Positions 38,423 to 44,252 of a stretch of DNA of 57,964 bases are shown here, piece after piece. Under the pieces are notes generated by a model, which saw only the letters and a program-made list of their open reading frames with translations, did not search any database and was not told where the DNA came from. The translations under genes and the position numbers were made by a program. The stretch's first letter is position 1, and each line of letters begins with the position of its first letter. The DNA comes from Bacteroidota bacterium (GTDB lineage Bacteria; Bacteroidota; Ignavibacteria; Kryptoniales; JAKASW01), in assembly GCA_021794075.1 (NCBI GenBank), contig JAJYRM010000010.1:1-57964 (forward strand), read 5' to 3'.

Positions 38423-38602
38423 GTGCCGCGTGAAGCATTAGAAATTCCGTTGAACAAAGGAATTCTAACGCTATTGGCGCCGTCTGGCAATATGGGGAAT
38501 TCGGAGGAGACAGCGATTAAATATCTTTTTAATGGGCAAGCTGCCATGGCGGATCAGATACATTCGGAATATCTACAAGCGAAAGGAGGTGAAAAGGAAT
38601 GA
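38423..38602 (+). CDS. Short ORF translationally coupled to the repeat-peptide gene
   Basis: 59 residues from GTG 38423 (AAAGG at 38411-38415), with ATG 38492 as a shorter alternative of 36 residues. The stop TGA (38600-38602) overlaps the start of the next gene as ATGA (ATG 38599), a classic translational-coupling arrangement. Its last codons double as the strong AAGGAGGTG ribosome-binding site of that gene. The product is PREALEIPLNKGILTLLAPS followed by a mostly helical acidic tail (ETAIKYLFNGQAAMADQIHS). No family recognised. If real, it would be a small partner or chaperone of the downstream peptide. It could also be a regulatory leader ORF. Confidence 0.45.
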   Translation: MPREALEIPLNKGILTLLAPSGNMGNSEETAIKYLFNGQAAMADQIHSEYLQAKGGEKE

Positions 38603-38814
38603 AGTTCATGAATCTTGAACTGGAGAAACTCGAGCAACGTATTGCTCCTGGTATGGTGTACTGCTGCTGTGACTGCGGCGGAACAAACCAAGGGACAGCG
38701 GGGCACAGCAAGGCATCAAAGGCCAGCAAAGCCAGCAAGGCCAGTAAGGCCAGCAAGGCGAGCCACGCTTCGAATGGCTGTGGTACAAGCACGCACGGCT
38801 CAAAAGGCGGGTGA
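38599..38814 (+). CDS. Candidate RiPP-like precursor: LEKLEQRIAPG leader, Cys cluster, Lys-Ala-Ser repeats
   Basis: 71 residues, with a near-perfect ribosome-binding site (AAGGAGGTGA at 38583-38592, six bases before ATG). The N-terminus MKFMNLELEKLEQRIAPGM is leader-like. I recall similar LE-x-LE-x-RIAPG starts in small secreted peptides of other phyla but cannot confirm this here. A Cys-rich block follows (YCCCDCGGTNQG), then six perfect K-A-S triplets plus H-A-S, then NGCGTSTHGSKGG. The codons of the KAS units vary (GCA TCA, GCC AGC, GCC AGT, GCG AGC), which points to selection on the peptide. The next gene encodes a PqqD/RRE-protease-adaptor fusion, a natural partner for leader recognition, cleavage and export. 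A hairpin after it may limit read-through. Confidence 0.75.
   Translation: MKFMNLELEKLEQRIAPGMVYCCCDCGGTNQGTAGHSKASKASKASKASKASKASHASNGCGTSTHGSKGG
38710..38763 (+). repeat. Six tandem 9-base repeats encoding Lys-Ala-Ser
   Basis: Consensus AAGGCCAGC repeated six times in frame within the peptide gene, followed by a degenerate seventh unit (CACGCTTCG, His-Ala-Ser). Copies differ at third positions and by TCA/AGC/AGT serine codons. The array is therefore old or under protein-level selection rather than a fresh slippage product. Confidence 0.9.
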
Positions 38815-38837
38815 CCTTGTGATCTAGAGAGCCATAG

Positions 38838-38875
38838 AGGCCGGGCGCCATAGCCTTGTTTTTGGTACCCGGCTT
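38838..38875 (+). terminator. Possible attenuator hairpin between peptide gene and export gene
   Basis: AGGCCGGG (38838-38845) can pair with CCCGGCTT (38868-38875), one G-T pair included, around a 22-base loop that itself contains TTGTTTTTGG. TTT follows shortly. It is weak as a terminator. Partial termination here would give more peptide than processing protein, as is common for precursor-peptide operons. Confidence 0.3.
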
Positions 38876-38993
38876 TAGATTCCAATGTCGCCAGACTTAT
38901 ACAGAGCCGAAGAGTTATAAGAGTCTTTTGCCGATATTCCGCGGTCATCATCGTCATTCAGAAGTGTAAGCAGGTTTCTATTGAGATTGAAAT

Positions 38994-41480
38994 ATGTCAA
39001 GCAGTCTACCCAAAATCAGGACCGATTTAATATTCACCGAACGGGTAACTTCCGACGGCGTGTCCTTTGTAATCAAGGATCCCCTAAATGACCATTACTT
39101 CCATTTCGGCGAAGCGGAGCGTTTCATCTTGCAGCAGCTCGATGGAGAGACAAACCTAGATGTGGTACGCGCCAGAGCGGAGAAAAAGTTTGATTCCGCG
39201 CTTCCATATGAGACATTAAAAGCGTTCCTCGGAAATTGCAAAACATCTGGTCTGCTCGATACGGGCGAACAGAAAACAAAAAAATCAAAACGACGGTTAG
39301 ACGGTAACTTACTCTACCTTAGGTTCAAACTCTATGACCCTGATGATTTGCTGACCCGGTTGGTGCCCAGGATCGGGTTCTTCTTTACTTCATATTTTAT
39401 GTTCCTGTCGTTTGCCTCTATCGCAATCGCTACCTGTGTGTTGATTACGAACTGGAGCGTGTTTGTGCATGCTCTGTTGGAGCTACGATACGGGGCGATT
39501 CCAGTCCTGCTCGCCGTATCCTTCTTCGTAGTATCTCTACACGAGCTAGCCCATGGGTTAACCTGTAAGCGTTTTGGTGGGAGTGTTCATGAGATCGGCT
39601 TCATGCTGATATACGCGCAGCCCTGCCTCTACTGCAACGTCAGCGATGCGTGGCTGTTCCCCGAAAAGAAGAAGCGGCTTTGGGTCGGCTTCGCAGGTCC
39701 TTATTTTGAACTGTTCATCTGGTCGGTCGCCACACTCGCCTGGCAAGTTACCGTCTTCACATCATGGATCAACTACGTATCGCTAATAATTATGGCAAGC
39801 TCAGGTCTTAAGACCCTCGTCAACTTCAACCCCTTCATCAAATACGATGGCTACTACCTCCTTAGCGATTTCCTGGAGATTCCAAATTTGAGAAGAAGAG
39901 CCTTTCGTTATGTGGGTATGCAGCTGGAGAGACTGGTTGGGAGGAAGCCGCCGCTCACGAAAGAGCTTACCAAGCGAGAGCGACTCATATATCTTGTTTA
40001 CGGCACAATCTCATTCGCCGCTTCTTTTGCCCTCATTCTCGTCCTTATAGGATCAATTGGTGGATACATAGCCAAAGGCACCAGCGGGCTGGTCGGGGCT
40101 CTCTTCGCCGTGGCTATATCAGCATCATGGGTTCAAAGAAGAATGAACAGACTTTTCGGAATCGAGCATATGTTCAAAAAGAAACCGAAAGAAACTGCCG
40201 TCGAGGCTGTCGTGGGACAGTCGCCGCAATCCAGACCTACTTCGGTCGAGTCGACAGGGAATCAACCTGGATCAGAAAATAATCGGACTGAATCGATCCC
40301 AGTGCCAACGGGTGACACCGTGTCGGCGAACAAGACGCAGTCTGGTCGGAACAATGGGAACAATAAAGTGCCTGGTCATGACGGCGGATCGGATCAACTC
40401 AAGAAGAAGGTCCTATGGAAGAAACGATGCGTGTATGTCGCGGTCCTTGGCGCGTTAGGTGTATACCTGTTCTTCGGAAAGGCTCAGAAAAGCGTGACAG
40501 GCCCGTTCGATATAATTCCTACACAGAATGCCAGCGTTCGCACGACAATTGCGGGGATCGTAAAAGAAGTCGACGTGCATGAAGGGCAATTCGTGCAGGT
40601 GGGAGATACGATTGCGAAGCTATCGGATGAGACAAATTCGACGGACCTGAAAAGGATCGAGTATCAGATTTCGCAGAACAAGGCCAAGCTCCTTCTCTTG
40701 AAGAGCGGACCTACTCTGCAGCAGATCAAGCTAGCGCAGACAGATGTTGATAAGGCGCAGGTGCAGGTACACTACTCGGGGCTCAAAGCGGAAATGTCCA
40801 GGAAACTGTATGAAAAAAACATCATTTCTAAAGGGGAGATTGACGACGCGGAAGGAGCTTACGCGCTGGCCCAGCGCGATCTCGAGTCCTCGAAGGCAAA
40901 GCTGGCGGTTCTCCTGCAAGGACCACGTCCGCAGGAGATAGAGGCAAGTCAGGCCGAGATCGCCAGTCTTGAAGCCCAACAAGAATTCCTTTCGACACAG
41001 ATAAAGGAAGCGTCTGTGGTGACTCCGGCAAGCGGCATCATCGCAACGCCGGAGATACAGCTGAGAGAAATGGCGGGGCAAGCGGTCACTAAGGGGGCGC
41101 TGATCGTTAAAGTTTTCGACTTTAGAAAGGTTATTGTGGAAATAGTAGTGTCTGAGGATGACATCGGCGAAGTAAGAGTGGGCCAGAAGGTAGTTCTAAA
41201 GGCTCGGGCTTATCCCAATAAGACCTTCAGCGGCGTCGTCGAGGCGATAGCAATTGCTGCGGAGGGTATAGAATCGTCTACGAGTGCTGGCCAGCCCGCC
41301 AGATCGTCGAAGGCGGCGAACACTTTCATTGTGGCAACAGAGATCGAGAATAGCTCCTTGCTCTTGAAGGCTGGGATGGGCGGCGAAGCGAGAATCTTAT
41401 GCAGAAGAGCCAGGGTACTGAATGTGTTGATAGATCCGCTAGTCCATACTTTGAAGACTCAATTCTGGACATTGTTCTAA
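38994..41480 (+). CDS. PqqD/RRE-like + M50 metalloprotease + HlyD adaptor fusion protein
   Basis: 828 residues in three modules. Residues ~1-95 are a PqqD-like winged helix (YFHFGEAERFILQQLDGETNLDVV split here; ends KTSGLLD), the fold that binds RiPP leader peptides. Residues ~120-390 are a membrane M50 site-2-protease-type domain with HELAH (183-187) and the second zinc motif NFNPFIKYDGYY (277-288, Asp285). About six membrane helices are visible. After a Ser/Asn-rich linker (~400-460) and one more membrane helix comes an HlyD/MFP adaptor: lipoyl half IAGIVKEVDVHEGQFVQVGD, a long coiled-coil hairpin and a second half ending KAGMGGEARI. It should recognise, possibly cut, and pass a small peptide outward. 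No ABC ATPase or TolC is in the window. The start ATG has a weak ribosome-binding site. Confidence 0.88.
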   Translation: MSSSLPKIRTDLIFTERVTSDGVSFVIKDPLNDHYFHFGEAERFILQQLDGETNLDVVRARAEKKFDSALPYETLKAFLGNCKTSGLLDTGEQKTKKSKRRLDGNLLYLRFKLYDPDDLLTRLVPRIGFFFTSYFMFLSFASIAIATCVLITNWSVFVHALLELRYGAIPVLLAVSFFVVSLHELAHGLTCKRFGGSVHEIGFMLIYAQPCLYCNVSDAWLFPEKKKRLWVGFAGPYFELFIWSVATLAWQVTVFTSWINYVSLIIMASSGLKTLVNFNPFIKYDGYYLLSDFLEIPNLRRRAFRYVGMQLERLVGRKPPLTKELTKRERLIYLVYGTISFAASFALILVLIGSIGGYIAKGTSGLVGALFAVAISASWVQRRMNRLFGIEHMFKKKPKETAVEAVVGQSPQSRPTSVESTGNQPGSENNRTESIPVPTGDTVSANKTQSGRNNGNNKVPGHDGGSDQLKKKVLWKKRCVYVAVLGALGVYLFFGKAQKSVTGPFDIIPTQNASVRTTIAGIVKEVDVHEGQFVQVGDTIAKLSDETNSTDLKRIEYQISQNKAKLLLLKSGPTLQQIKLAQTDVDKAQVQVHYSGLKAEMSRKLYEKNIISKGEIDDAEGAYALAQRDLESSKAKLAVLLQGPRPQEIEASQAEIASLEAQQEFLSTQIKEASVVTPASGIIATPEIQLREMAGQAVTKGALIVKVFDFRKVIVEIVVSEDDIGEVRVGQKVVLKARAYPNKTFSGVVEAIAIAAEGIESSTSAGQPARSSKAANTFIVATEIENSSLLLKAGMGGEARILCRRARVLNVLIDPLVHTLKTQFWTLF

Positions 41481-41491
41481 GGAGACAAAAC

Positions 41492-42511
41492 ATGCCTACA
41501 CTATTCGACGTTTGTGATTCAGAAACAAATGTGATGTCGGAAAATGGCTCCCGGGGACATTCGCCGTTTACCGAGGCGAGATCAACTAGAAGCTCTCCTC
41601 AGGGATTCACCGACAAATGCCTTTACTTGACCGGACGCCCTACGCTGCGAGACTTTCTTCACTATGTCAAGAGCCACTCCGCAAATCCGGAAGACGAGGG
41701 CCTATTGACCGACCAATGGAGGTCGGCCCGCGAAATTGTCCTTACCCTTGAGAAGACGGAAGCGGGACTCGCGGACAATCCGAATATTGTTCGGATTGAA
41801 TTGAAATCGGAATACGAAGAACTTCTTACCAATTTTGTAAAAGACCCGCTAGTGCAGCATGGGTTCAATACCGTACCGACAGAAATCGCGTTTGTTGAAC
41901 TGGACTCGATGGTTGTTTACCAGAAGCATATCGATCTTAGTTACGTTGAACAACTCGAAAGAAAATTAGGGGAGTCGCCGAGTTGGGAAAAAGTTTTCCT
42001 GACCTGCTTCCCCCTTGAGCATCCTGTACCGCCTGTCACATGGTCACGCGTCCATGGTGGGAGCTATGTATTTGTGTCGCCATCGAATGATATCCGCTTT
42101 TTAGGCGCGATGCAGCTGCAACCTGGAAACATAAAGGACATTCCACCGCCAGGGAATATGGTAGGAGTAGTTGGGATAGCCGTCGGATTCGGATCGAATT
42201 TCCTTAACGCGATTCAGGTTGAGAACCGGCTTATACTCAACAACGGCAGCCACCGTGCTTACGCGCTCCGCAAACTTGGAATTGCCCGCGTCCCTTGCAT
42301 TGTGCAGCATGTCCACTCGCGCGATGAATTGGATGCCGTTGCGGACTCGGAGGTCATGCGCGATCCGGAGTATTTGTTGCACAATCCGCGGCCTTCAATG
42401 CTAAGGGACTATTTCAATCCTGAACTATACAAAGTCATGCAGGTCAAGAGGCGGCTGTATCAAGTAACGGTGAAGTTTGACGTCGAACAGAATTACATGC
42501 CGGCGCTTTGA
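41492..42511 (+). CDS. ParB-like-fold protein of unknown function, linked to the peptide cassette
   Basis: About 339 residues from ATG 41492, seven bases after AAGGAG, which overlaps the end of the preceding gene. The gap is only 11 bases, so the two are almost surely co-transcribed. The frame is open upstream to 41399, but that part overlaps the fusion gene. Around residues 244-272 is NRLILNNGSHRAYALRKLGI followed by ARVPCIV. This is the G-x-H-R-x-x-A-x-x-x-L-G pattern of the ParB/sulfiredoxin fold, a fold used by DNA-binding CTPases, nucleases and ATP/ADP-dependent serine kinases. The ~200-residue N-terminal part (TGRPTLRDFLHYVK, KVFLTCFPLEHP) is unknown to me. No signal peptide. A role in modifying the Ser-rich peptide is a guess. 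Confidence 0.6.
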   Translation: MPTLFDVCDSETNVMSENGSRGHSPFTEARSTRSSPQGFTDKCLYLTGRPTLRDFLHYVKSHSANPEDEGLLTDQWRSAREIVLTLEKTEAGLADNPNIVRIELKSEYEELLTNFVKDPLVQHGFNTVPTEIAFVELDSMVVYQKHIDLSYVEQLERKLGESPSWEKVFLTCFPLEHPVPPVTWSRVHGGSYVFVSPSNDIRFLGAMQLQPGNIKDIPPPGNMVGVVGIAVGFGSNFLNAIQVENRLILNNGSHRAYALRKLGIARVPCIVQHVHSRDELDAVADSEVMRDPEYLLHNPRPSMLRDYFNPELYKVMQVKRRLYQVTVKFDVEQNYMPAL

Positions 42512-42674
42512 GCTGGTCGAGAGGGAGAATATGAAACCATTACGAGAGGTCGGCTTGATTTGGAGCTAATGGACGGTGCCGGCAAGCGCGCAACCGCTCT
42601 CTTCGCCACCTGATTTACCTAAGGTCGTTCGTCGCGGCCCTTCTTAGAAGACATTCGAAGGCTTAAAATACACC

Positions 42675-44252
42675 ATGTACACAATTGAAACTCCGCGCCG
42701 ATTTTCAGAATCCATATTCTGGCGATTGATGGTCGACTACTACCGCCGGCAAGGCATCAAAGCCTGGAGCAACGGCGAGGTGCCGTTCCGCATCTCAAGT
42801 AATCCTTACATTGCAAACGCATACGCGGAGATAATCACCGGATATCTGCGAGATGTATCTAATGTCGATGATTCCGTCCGCTCCGTGACCATCATCGAGC
42901 TCGGTGCTGGCTCCGGACAGTTCGGCTATTTGTTGGCGCGAGCTCTTGTTGAGAGGACAATTGCAAACGCCGCGTATAAGGGCCCTTCCTTCAAGTATCT
43001 CATGACGGATGTCGCGGACAGCAACGTGTCCGAGTGGGCGAAGAATCCGCGGCTGAGATTTTTGGTGGAACAGGGTATAATGGAGTTTGCCGTTTTGGAT
43101 GTTGCCGATCCTTATTCGGCTATGATCGCTGTCTCACGAAGGTCGCTAGAACAGTTCAACTCTGGAAATCCGGTAGTAGTGATTGCCAATTACGTCCTTG
43201 ACGTGCTGGTCCATGATGCTTTCTCTGTACGAGATGGCAAACTGAATGAGGTACGGATCGGCGTAGAAATCGGAAAGAAGATGCCGGAGATTATTGGAAG
43301 CAAAGAAGTGTTCGAGTCTTTAGCATTCAACAGGACAGCAACTCCGGTAAAGTTCCCTTATTACAATGAGCCAGATCTAGATTCCGTTCTGAAAAGCTAT
43401 TCGACTACTCTTAGGTCTGCTACTTTCCTTTTTCCTGTTTCAGCCCTTCGATTCATGGAGAAGGTGGGCCAAATGAGCGGTGGACGTATGCTGATGATTG
43501 TCAGCGACAAGGCATATATCAGGACAGATCAGTTGGAAGGACAAAACGGCTTGAACTTGGCCGTGACAGGTTCCTTCTCGGCGATCATCAATCTCGACGC
43601 CGTGGCTAGATGGATTGGGGAACACGGAGGGGTTGTCAAAGTCCCCGACTCTGCCAGCTCGCATTTCGACACTTACGCATTTCTTCTTAGGCATACAGGG
43701 GATTTTGTGAATCTTTCGGACGCTTTCTCGCGAGCTGTTGACGACCTTGGCCCCGCGTCATACTGGGCCGTTGCGGAAAACGTGATGCATCATACCGGGG
43801 GATTCACGCTAAGGGCACTCCTCGGGTTCTTGAAATTATCGTGTTACGATCCTTACTTGGTGATGGCGATGAAGGAAAGTCTCCTCCAGGCTGCCAATGA
43901 GGCAGACGTCGAAGGGGGAGAACGACTTTATTCTGCGTTGTCGAAAGTGTGGGGGAATTATTATCCCATGGGCGGCAACCGCGCGCGGCGAGATGTCGCG
44001 TTTCTCCTGGGGAGACTCTTCCGGCGTCTCAGAAAACCCGAAAGATCTCTCGAATGTTTTCGTGCCTCCATGGAGGAATTCGGAGCACATTGCTCAGTCC
44101 TGCGCAATATCGGTATCTGCTATGAAGAACTCGGAGAAAAGGAAGAGGCACTCTCTTATTACAGAGAAGCGTCACGGCTTCGTCCTGATCTGCCTGCGGA
44201 AGAGGGGATTACCAGATTGAGTCAAGTCGACGAAATAGTTGCGAGTCGATGA
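42675..44252 (+). CDS. MidA-like SAM-dependent methyltransferase fused to TPR region
   Basis: 525 residues. The SAM-binding motif I is VTIIELGAGSGQFGYLLARA (about residues 73-92), and a motif IV-like segment VVVIANYVLDVLVHDAF (about 175-191) follows. The V-I-A-N-Y/E-x-x-D-x-L-V/P spacing is that of the MidA/NDUFAF7 (DUF185) arginine methyltransferases, though overall similarity is low. The last ~150 residues are helical repeats. RRLRKPERSLECFRASMEEFG and SVLRNIGICYEELGEKEEAL (34-residue period, then YYREASRLRPDLP) are TPR units for protein binding. It starts at ATG 42675, 163 bases after the ParB-like gene, with a distant GAAGG, so the two may or may not share a transcript. A possible peptide- or protein-modifying enzyme of the cassette. 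Confidence 0.65.
   Translation: MYTIETPRRFSESIFWRLMVDYYRRQGIKAWSNGEVPFRISSNPYIANAYAEIITGYLRDVSNVDDSVRSVTIIELGAGSGQFGYLLARALVERTIANAAYKGPSFKYLMTDVADSNVSEWAKNPRLRFLVEQGIMEFAVLDVADPYSAMIAVSRRSLEQFNSGNPVVVIANYVLDVLVHDAFSVRDGKLNEVRIGVEIGKKMPEIIGSKEVFESLAFNRTATPVKFPYYNEPDLDSVLKSYSTTLRSATFLFPVSALRFMEKVGQMSGGRMLMIVSDKAYIRTDQLEGQNGLNLAVTGSFSAIINLDAVARWIGEHGGVVKVPDSASSHFDTYAFLLRHTGDFVNLSDAFSRAVDDLGPASYWAVAENVMHHTGGFTLRALLGFLKLSCYDPYLVMAMKESLLQAANEADVEGGERLYSALSKVWGNYYPMGGNRARRDVAFLLGRLFRRLRKPERSLECFRASMEEFGAHCSVLRNIGICYEELGEKEEALSYYREASRLRPDLPAEEGITRLSQVDEIVASR

Follow-up and report, generated by a model that had tools for sequence, protein, structure and literature searches.

A probable RiPP-like locus in a Bacteroidota bacterium that joins a short Ser/Lys-rich peptide to an RRE–M50–HlyD fusion and a ParB-like protein

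The closest described relatives of the locus reported here come from several peptide systems. Daptides are processed by MpaP (NCBIfam NF041824, daptide_HExxH), an intramembrane HExxH peptidase that depends on a RiPP recognition element (RRE), RiPP standing for ribosomally synthesized and post-translationally modified peptide (PMC10036551). Epipeptides are matured by M50 proteases (YydH/LiaK/EpeP) that are thought to aid export; EpeP is credited with a double role in cleaving its peptide and exporting it (PMC10885120), a precedent for the fusion protein described below. In the lasso peptides paeninodin and pseudomycoidin, a dedicated kinase (PadeK and PsmK, respectively) phosphorylates a serine of the precursor (PMC9266682). 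SerK and SbnI, which have the ParB fold, act on serine with the help of nucleotides. We analyzed a stretch of 57,964 nucleotides, which we call the window (contig JAJYRM010000010.1 of assembly GCA_021794075.1, a 4.53-Mb draft genome in 240 contigs), in which a gene for a short peptide is followed by genes for an RRE–M50–HlyD fusion and a ParB-like protein. Judging from sequence, this small gene set very probably allows the bacterium to make, trim and export a short Ser/Lys-rich peptide.

Comparison with the described systems placed the locus in none of the named RiPP classes that we tested. Among named families, the N-terminal half of the fusion came closest to the daptide protease model (207 bits over residues 23–381), a score below the curated cut-off of 300 bits, and the fusion differs from MpaP in carrying an HlyD adaptor. 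Among the neighboring window proteins scanned, we found no MpaB/C oxidative decarboxylase, MpaD aminotransferase or MpaM methyltransferase, nor a daptide precursor. The match to the epipeptide proteases was far below its cut-off (38 versus 225 bits), and the locus has neither a radical SAM epimerase nor an epipeptide precursor. The peptide did resemble the HxsA4 precursor of the His-Xaa-Ser (Hxs) system below cut-off (20.6 of 55 bits), a match that we rejected because it stems from the low-complexity core, and no radical SAM protein of that system (HxsB/HxsC) was matched among the same proteins. PadeK and PsmK belong to another kinase family and act on a single C-terminal Ser of a lasso fold. 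The initial annotation had noted that LanB/C, radical SAM, YcaO and ABC genes are missing, and none of these was matched in the proteins scanned.

The features of the locus are listed below (window positions, plus strand), together with the peptide genes of two relatives, G515 and G375, that carry the same fusion. All genes lie where the initial annotation had put them, with 11 bases between the fusion and ParB-like genes and 163 bases between the latter and the methyltransferase gene. Its start of the locus at 38423 did not hold up, as it takes in a doubtful open reading frame (ORF) that had no family match and no convincing relative in any locus examined.

38423–38602, plus strand: GTG-initiated ORF of 59 residues that runs into the beginning of the peptide gene and is itself unlikely to be a gene (see above).
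38582–38592, plus strand: Shine-Dalgarno site of the peptide gene, AAAGGAGGTGA (sequence; identical in the G515 and G375 homologues).
38599–38814, plus strand: precursor peptide gene, 71 residues (in G515 and G375, too, a homologue immediately precedes the fusion gene).
38614–38652, plus strand: leader motif LELEKLEQRIAPG, residues 6–18, proposed RRE recognition sequence (LExLEx[RK]IAP[GS], conserved at three fusion loci and in one orphan).
38653–38811, plus strand: core region, a Cys block followed by KAS repeats (sequence; repeat at 38706–38763).
38840–38873, plus strand: RNA stem-loop after the peptide gene and ahead of the fusion gene (z = −3.5).
38994–41480, plus strand: RRE–M50–HlyD fusion, 828 residues (profile libraries, AlphaFold2 model, Foldseek).
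41492–42511, plus strand: ParB-like protein, 339 residues, candidate core-modifying enzyme (syntenic G515 homologue, plasmid homologues, weak SerK matches).
42675–44252, plus strand: methyltransferase (Methyltransf_28/MidA-like)–TPR protein, probably outside the system (Pfam; not found in 23 relatives).
G515, L063 3887–4099, minus strand: peptide homologue directly upstream of the fusion.
G375, L082 10055–10225, minus strand: peptide homologue directly upstream of the fusion.

The 828-residue protein had been described as a PqqD-like, M50 and HlyD fusion, and the description was borne out. An RRE/PqqD-like region (residues 13–84) precedes the protease, with its HELAH motif at residues 183–187 and an Asp at 285, and a polar linker and a transmembrane segment (479–497) lead to the HlyD region (about 500–760). 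Profile libraries recovered the M50 protease in the middle and the HlyD domains at the C terminus (Pfam E-value of 5e-16), as well as a PqqD domain in the G515 fusion (residues 25–88). An AlphaFold2 model of the RRE–M50 part, built from 26 homologues (mean predicted local distance difference test [pLDDT] score of 85.5), placed three strands and three helices at residues 13–84, followed by a membrane bundle. Foldseek matched the membrane part to the site-2 protease 3b4r from M. jannaschii (probability 1.00) and the N terminus to leader-bound lasso B1 proteins (0.98–1.00; TbiB1 with leader, 1.00) and to PqqD 5sxy (0.99); E-values were modest (best 3e-3) because the query was a two-domain chain. 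The residues H183, E184, H187 and D285 were invariant in 26 sequences, and the fusion thus shows the HExxH motif and distal Asp within a membrane bundle that characterize M50 site-2 proteases. Its modeled N-terminal fold would supply the leader-binding RRE that RiPP loci encode alongside their precursors, and we infer from model and sequence that this domain binds the leader of the adjacent peptide.

We searched 391 genomes of the class with an RRE–M50 profile and recovered three strong members of the fusion clade (813, 812 and 404 bits), well separated from the next match at 123 bits. The three span three families (window, f1; G515, f8; G375, f13), and all are draft genomes. A short peptide gene with the motif LExLEx[RK]IAP lay directly upstream on the same strand in three out of three. 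The initial annotation had proposed this co-occurrence as a check and fusions lacking a peptide neighbor as grounds for refutation, and its reading came through. The converse finding, peptides spread widely without the fusion, was limited to one orphan in G418 (L062 9252–9455, minus strand; MKHLNLELETLEQRIAPG...), with the leader LETLEQRIAPG and a core rich in Ser, Lys and His. Further scans for the fusion returned just one 24%-identical Ruminiclostridium protease from GTDB contigs, which we set aside, and none from viral contigs.

The peptides of the window, G515 and G375 (MKFMNLELEKLEQRIAPG..., MRHLNLELETLEQRIAPG... and MEKDREITLEFEELEEKIAPS..., respectively) combine a conserved leader with cores that diverge strongly between relatives and consist of low-complexity repeats (KAS; SKSHSS; GYEGQPGNQG), and so have the short precursor, conserved leader and variable core expected of RiPPs. 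The short gene with a leader-like N terminus was correctly called in the initial annotation. Among 9,631 ORFs of the examined loci, the motif occurred within the first 40 residues of an ORF of at most 150 residues at the three fusion loci only, which argues against a chance find. Shine-Dalgarno sites are generally weak in Bacteroidota; the site before the peptide gene is perfect and the same in all three genomes, which is unusual. Synonymous codons vary among the KAS units (GCA/GCC/GCG; TCA/AGC/AGT), indicating that the amino acids and not the DNA are conserved. The stem-loop after the peptide gene recurs in G515 (z = −3.0) and more weakly in G375 (z = −2.0), and may be an attenuator or messenger RNA stabilizer that favors peptide over enzyme expression. 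The Cys block that had been singled out as a feature (CCCDC) is confined to the window peptide and absent from those of the relatives, so Cys chemistry is unlikely to define the family. Taken together, these sequence comparisons support the 71-residue peptide as a leader–core precursor partnered with the RRE–M50–HlyD fusion.

Other candidates for the motif did not stand. Matches in L054–L057, L059, L060 and L065 and in the viral contigs L104 and L105 were antisense frames or pieces of large unrelated proteins, and a plasmid search with the leader returned noise. LEPR-XLL is a similar N-terminal motif of giant proteins. The Chlorobium-like giant protein that we inspected does not begin with it, the papers searched gave only two passing mentions, and we retain it as an analogy.

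The ParB-like protein was present as annotated, under a label that rests on weak matches. It had been given little weight, and is here the best candidate for a modifying enzyme. A 53%-identical homologue follows the fusion in synteny in G515. The protein is very rare (one of 395 genomes of the phylum and two of 52 chosen relatives), and plasmids of four Alphaproteobacteria (Rhodobacter, Methylobacterium, Paracoccus and Blastomonas) carry homologues of 30%–39% identity over at least 85% of the length. In all four the gene directly follows a short peptide gene, and in three HlyD and peptidase-ABC genes come directly after it; in Blastomonas, the genes after it encode a 2OG-Fe(II) oxygenase and another peptide, with the exporter genes next on the opposite strand. 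We found no published description of these operons. They differ from the window locus in their double-glycine-type leader (MR[DE]LxxxExxxVxGAG), unrelated to LExLExRIAPG, and in a peptidase-containing ABC transporter that takes the place of the RRE–M50–HlyD fusion. On the Blastomonas plasmid pBSY18_3 (L098 1334–3698), two GAG-leader peptides flank the ParB-like and oxygenase genes, and a second tailoring step is likely there. A seventh homologue (L101 600–1571, 44% identical) sits without a clear peptide on a viral-collection contig of 5,054 bases. This contig also encodes a terminase-like protein, and an inverted repeat immediately before the ParB-like gene points to chimeric assembly.

A short peptide gene thus adjoins the ParB-like gene at six of its seven known places, in two phyla that differ in leader and exporter. 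Beyond this, the loci have in common only the composition of the core, which in the Alphaproteobacteria is rich in Ser, Lys and Arg (e.g., SPSCGSGDRKHGSKSKSKHASRSKKHSKSKSKRHG and SSPKPPKKHKNKGSKSKGSKSKGSKSKG...). The six ParB-linked cores contained 19%–50% Ser and 19%–46% Lys/Arg/His, compared with 0%–14% and 0%–11%, respectively, in 17 M50-linked cores without a ParB-like protein (rank test, p about 4e-4 for each), an association rather than proof, given sequences that are not fully independent and core borders set by eye. The ParB-like protein therefore appears tied to the core and separable from leader and exporter type. Since core composition is what these loci share, we favor, by a modest lean on sequence grounds, the core as the substrate of the ParB-like protein.

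We propose the following mechanism for a RiPP-like locus, which we consider probable. The fusion would use its cytoplasmic, PqqD-like RRE domain to bind the N-terminal LExLExRIAPG segment of the precursor. The ParB-like protein would act on the Ser/Lys-rich repeat core, most likely by adding phosphate or some other group taken from a nucleotide to the hydroxyls of its serines. The M50 intramembrane protease, whose active-site residues are present, would then remove the leader, and the fused HlyD domain would couple release of the peptide to the periplasm and an outer-membrane channel, with no adjacent ABC transporter. The product would be a short, basic, Ser-rich secreted peptide. The initial annotation had the peptide bound, modified, cut and exported by its neighbors: the partnership of leader and fusion is upheld by sequence and model, the role given to the methyltransferase is not, and modification, cleavage and export are predicted steps.

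That SerK was the only plausible named match of the ParB-like family speaks for this mechanism. Several observations weigh against it. The SerK matches are weak (E-values of 0.02–0.8): four of six members gave SerK as a weak NCBIfam match, with a score of 13.7 bits against a cut-off of 380, and three of the four matches of the family profile in the Protein Data Bank were SerK structures (E-values of 0.4–0.8), with the alignment covering the DGHHR/NGSHR motif. SerK phosphorylates free serine from ADP and leaves serine inside a peptide untouched (PMC5120207). The ParB-like family has about 180 extra N-terminal residues and keeps NG[SYH]HRA, with N, Q or D at the position of Glu30, the catalytic residue of SerK. 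An AlphaFold model of the ParB-like protein from two sequences reached a pLDDT of only 32. The fusion clade is known from three draft genomes, one of which (G375) has peptide and fusion and no ParB-like protein; G418, a 97%-complete genome, has neither fusion nor ParB-like protein despite its Ser-rich-core peptide. Finally, the locus contains no gene for an outer-membrane channel. With the catalytic Glu of SerK not conserved, phosphorylation of the peptide, although the most natural guess at the chemistry of the ParB-like protein, is still an improbable one. A wider claim, that a ParB-fold enzyme modifying serines (e.g., by multi-site phosphorylation or nucleotidylation) defines a new RiPP class and is interchangeable between two unrelated delivery systems (RRE–M50–HlyD with the LExLExRIAPG leader in Bacteroidota, peptidase-ABC with the GAG leader in Alphaproteobacteria), is one we can put forward only tentatively. 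A recent survey of the ParB-CTPase fold mentions neither peptides nor RiPPs in the body of the paper (PMC12704722), and a literature search combining ParB, RiPP and precursor peptide returned nothing on the subject by title and abstract.

The ParB-like protein could instead be an immunity protein, regulator or chaperone, with the peptide exported unmodified in the manner of a class II microcin. ParB-fold proteins, VirB and others, also serve as transcription regulators (PMC12704722), some alphaproteobacterial loci have no other enzyme, and the lost SerK residue fits a protein that does not modify. On the other hand, polar residues are strictly invariant in the family (E136, Q144, C172, D200, R202, N251, H254 and R255), none of its members matched a DNA-binding family in the profile libraries, and the protein tracks core composition and not leader or exporter type. 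We regard this explanation as rather unlikely.

It is also conceivable, though in our view unlikely, that the peptide is a small surface or adhesion protein and no RiPP precursor, LExLExRIAPG being a sorting signal read by the fusion. PqqD–M50–HlyD fusions of 718–720 residues do adjoin giant repeat proteins in green-sulfur-bacteria-like genomes, the repetitive cores differ strongly between relatives, and no modifying enzyme was seen in the G375 locus. Yet those fusions are only about 22%–25% identical to the window fusion and had no motif peptide beside them, and a peptide product accords better with the alphaproteobacterial plasmids, where the ParB-like gene has peptide-ABC exporters as neighbors.

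A methylated product (N-, O- or Arg-methylated) seems very improbable. The methyltransferase–TPR protein, which had been counted as part of the system and whose match to Methyltransf_28 was below the Pfam cut-off (20.6 versus 23.3 bits), is encoded 163 bases downstream on the same strand, and its C-terminal TPR region could bind a peptide; but a search of 23 relatives, G515 and G375 among them, did not recover it. The G515 contig stops short of the corresponding position, leaving synteny unreadable there, and a genome-wide search of this 87%-complete assembly was negative. Its one plasmid relative (Paenibacillus, 27% identical) lies outside any such locus. As neither the methyltransferase nor the Cys block is conserved with the locus, both drop out of the system. 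That the genes are chance neighbors and the peptide ORF a spurious product of a GC-rich 9-base repeat, which can generate open frames, can be dismissed almost entirely: the leader is conserved across three families, the ribosome-binding sites are perfect, codons vary synonymously within the repeat, and among the 9,631 ORFs only fusion loci matched the motif.

The RRE–M50–HlyD clade has a wider family around it. Weaker PqqD–M50 proteins of the phylum (44–127 bits) adjoin short peptides that carry [EL]LExR[LFM]E close to the leader–core boundary, a motif like LExLExRIAPG in place and form, and their partners are mostly radical SAM/SPASM maturases and once a SagD-type YcaO protein (L045 8494–12741). 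The radical SAM/SPASM loci (L035, L046, L049, L083 and L086–L088) differ from the window locus in that enzyme, in mostly Cys-containing cores and in having neither an HlyD fusion nor a ParB-like protein. The family thus already serves leader peptides: the RRE–M50 module is an established peptide-processing part, of which the window clade represents a variant.

Some of these loci are of interest in themselves. L035 (contig C209 of the window genome, 5774–11574) is a second RiPP-like locus. Besides the peptide MSQDEKKENRNEIKSLNDPLLEELSIEELEKRLELTTPKTCGQYTPASPEEAI it encodes a radical SAM/SPASM protein, an acyltransferase-like protein that ends in a PqqD-like domain, a PqqD–M50 protease and a TPR protein; close copies occur in genus-mates (L086–L088). 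Squalene-hopene-cyclase-like proteins (L046 9709–11934; L048 6397–8325) directly adjoin PqqD–M50 proteases and ELExR peptides in two loci of the radical SAM type, an unusual partnership. In green-sulfur-bacteria-like genomes, the fusions of about 720 residues occur among genes for GAF–HlyD, HlyD, SecA-like, TolC-like and giant repeat proteins, and a comparable set lies on a Pseudohalocynthiibacter plasmid (L037–L040, L099). The SecA domain was confirmed in L040. These sets may form a so far undescribed route of secretion that has its own SecA. In the window we also noted type IX sorting tails and a DUF3078 protein, both in keeping with Bacteroidota; a defense-system library gave no match, and promoter and terminator scans did no better than shuffles.

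If our interpretation is correct, peptide modification would join chromosome segregation, gene regulation and small-molecule serine kinases among the uses of the ParB fold. The RRE–M50–HlyD fusion would be a one-protein module that recognizes, cuts and exports its peptide without an adjacent ABC transporter. The ParB fold would also provide a new genome-mining marker for peptides that current RiPP rules, in the absence of LanB/C, radical SAM, YcaO or ATP-grasp genes, probably miss.

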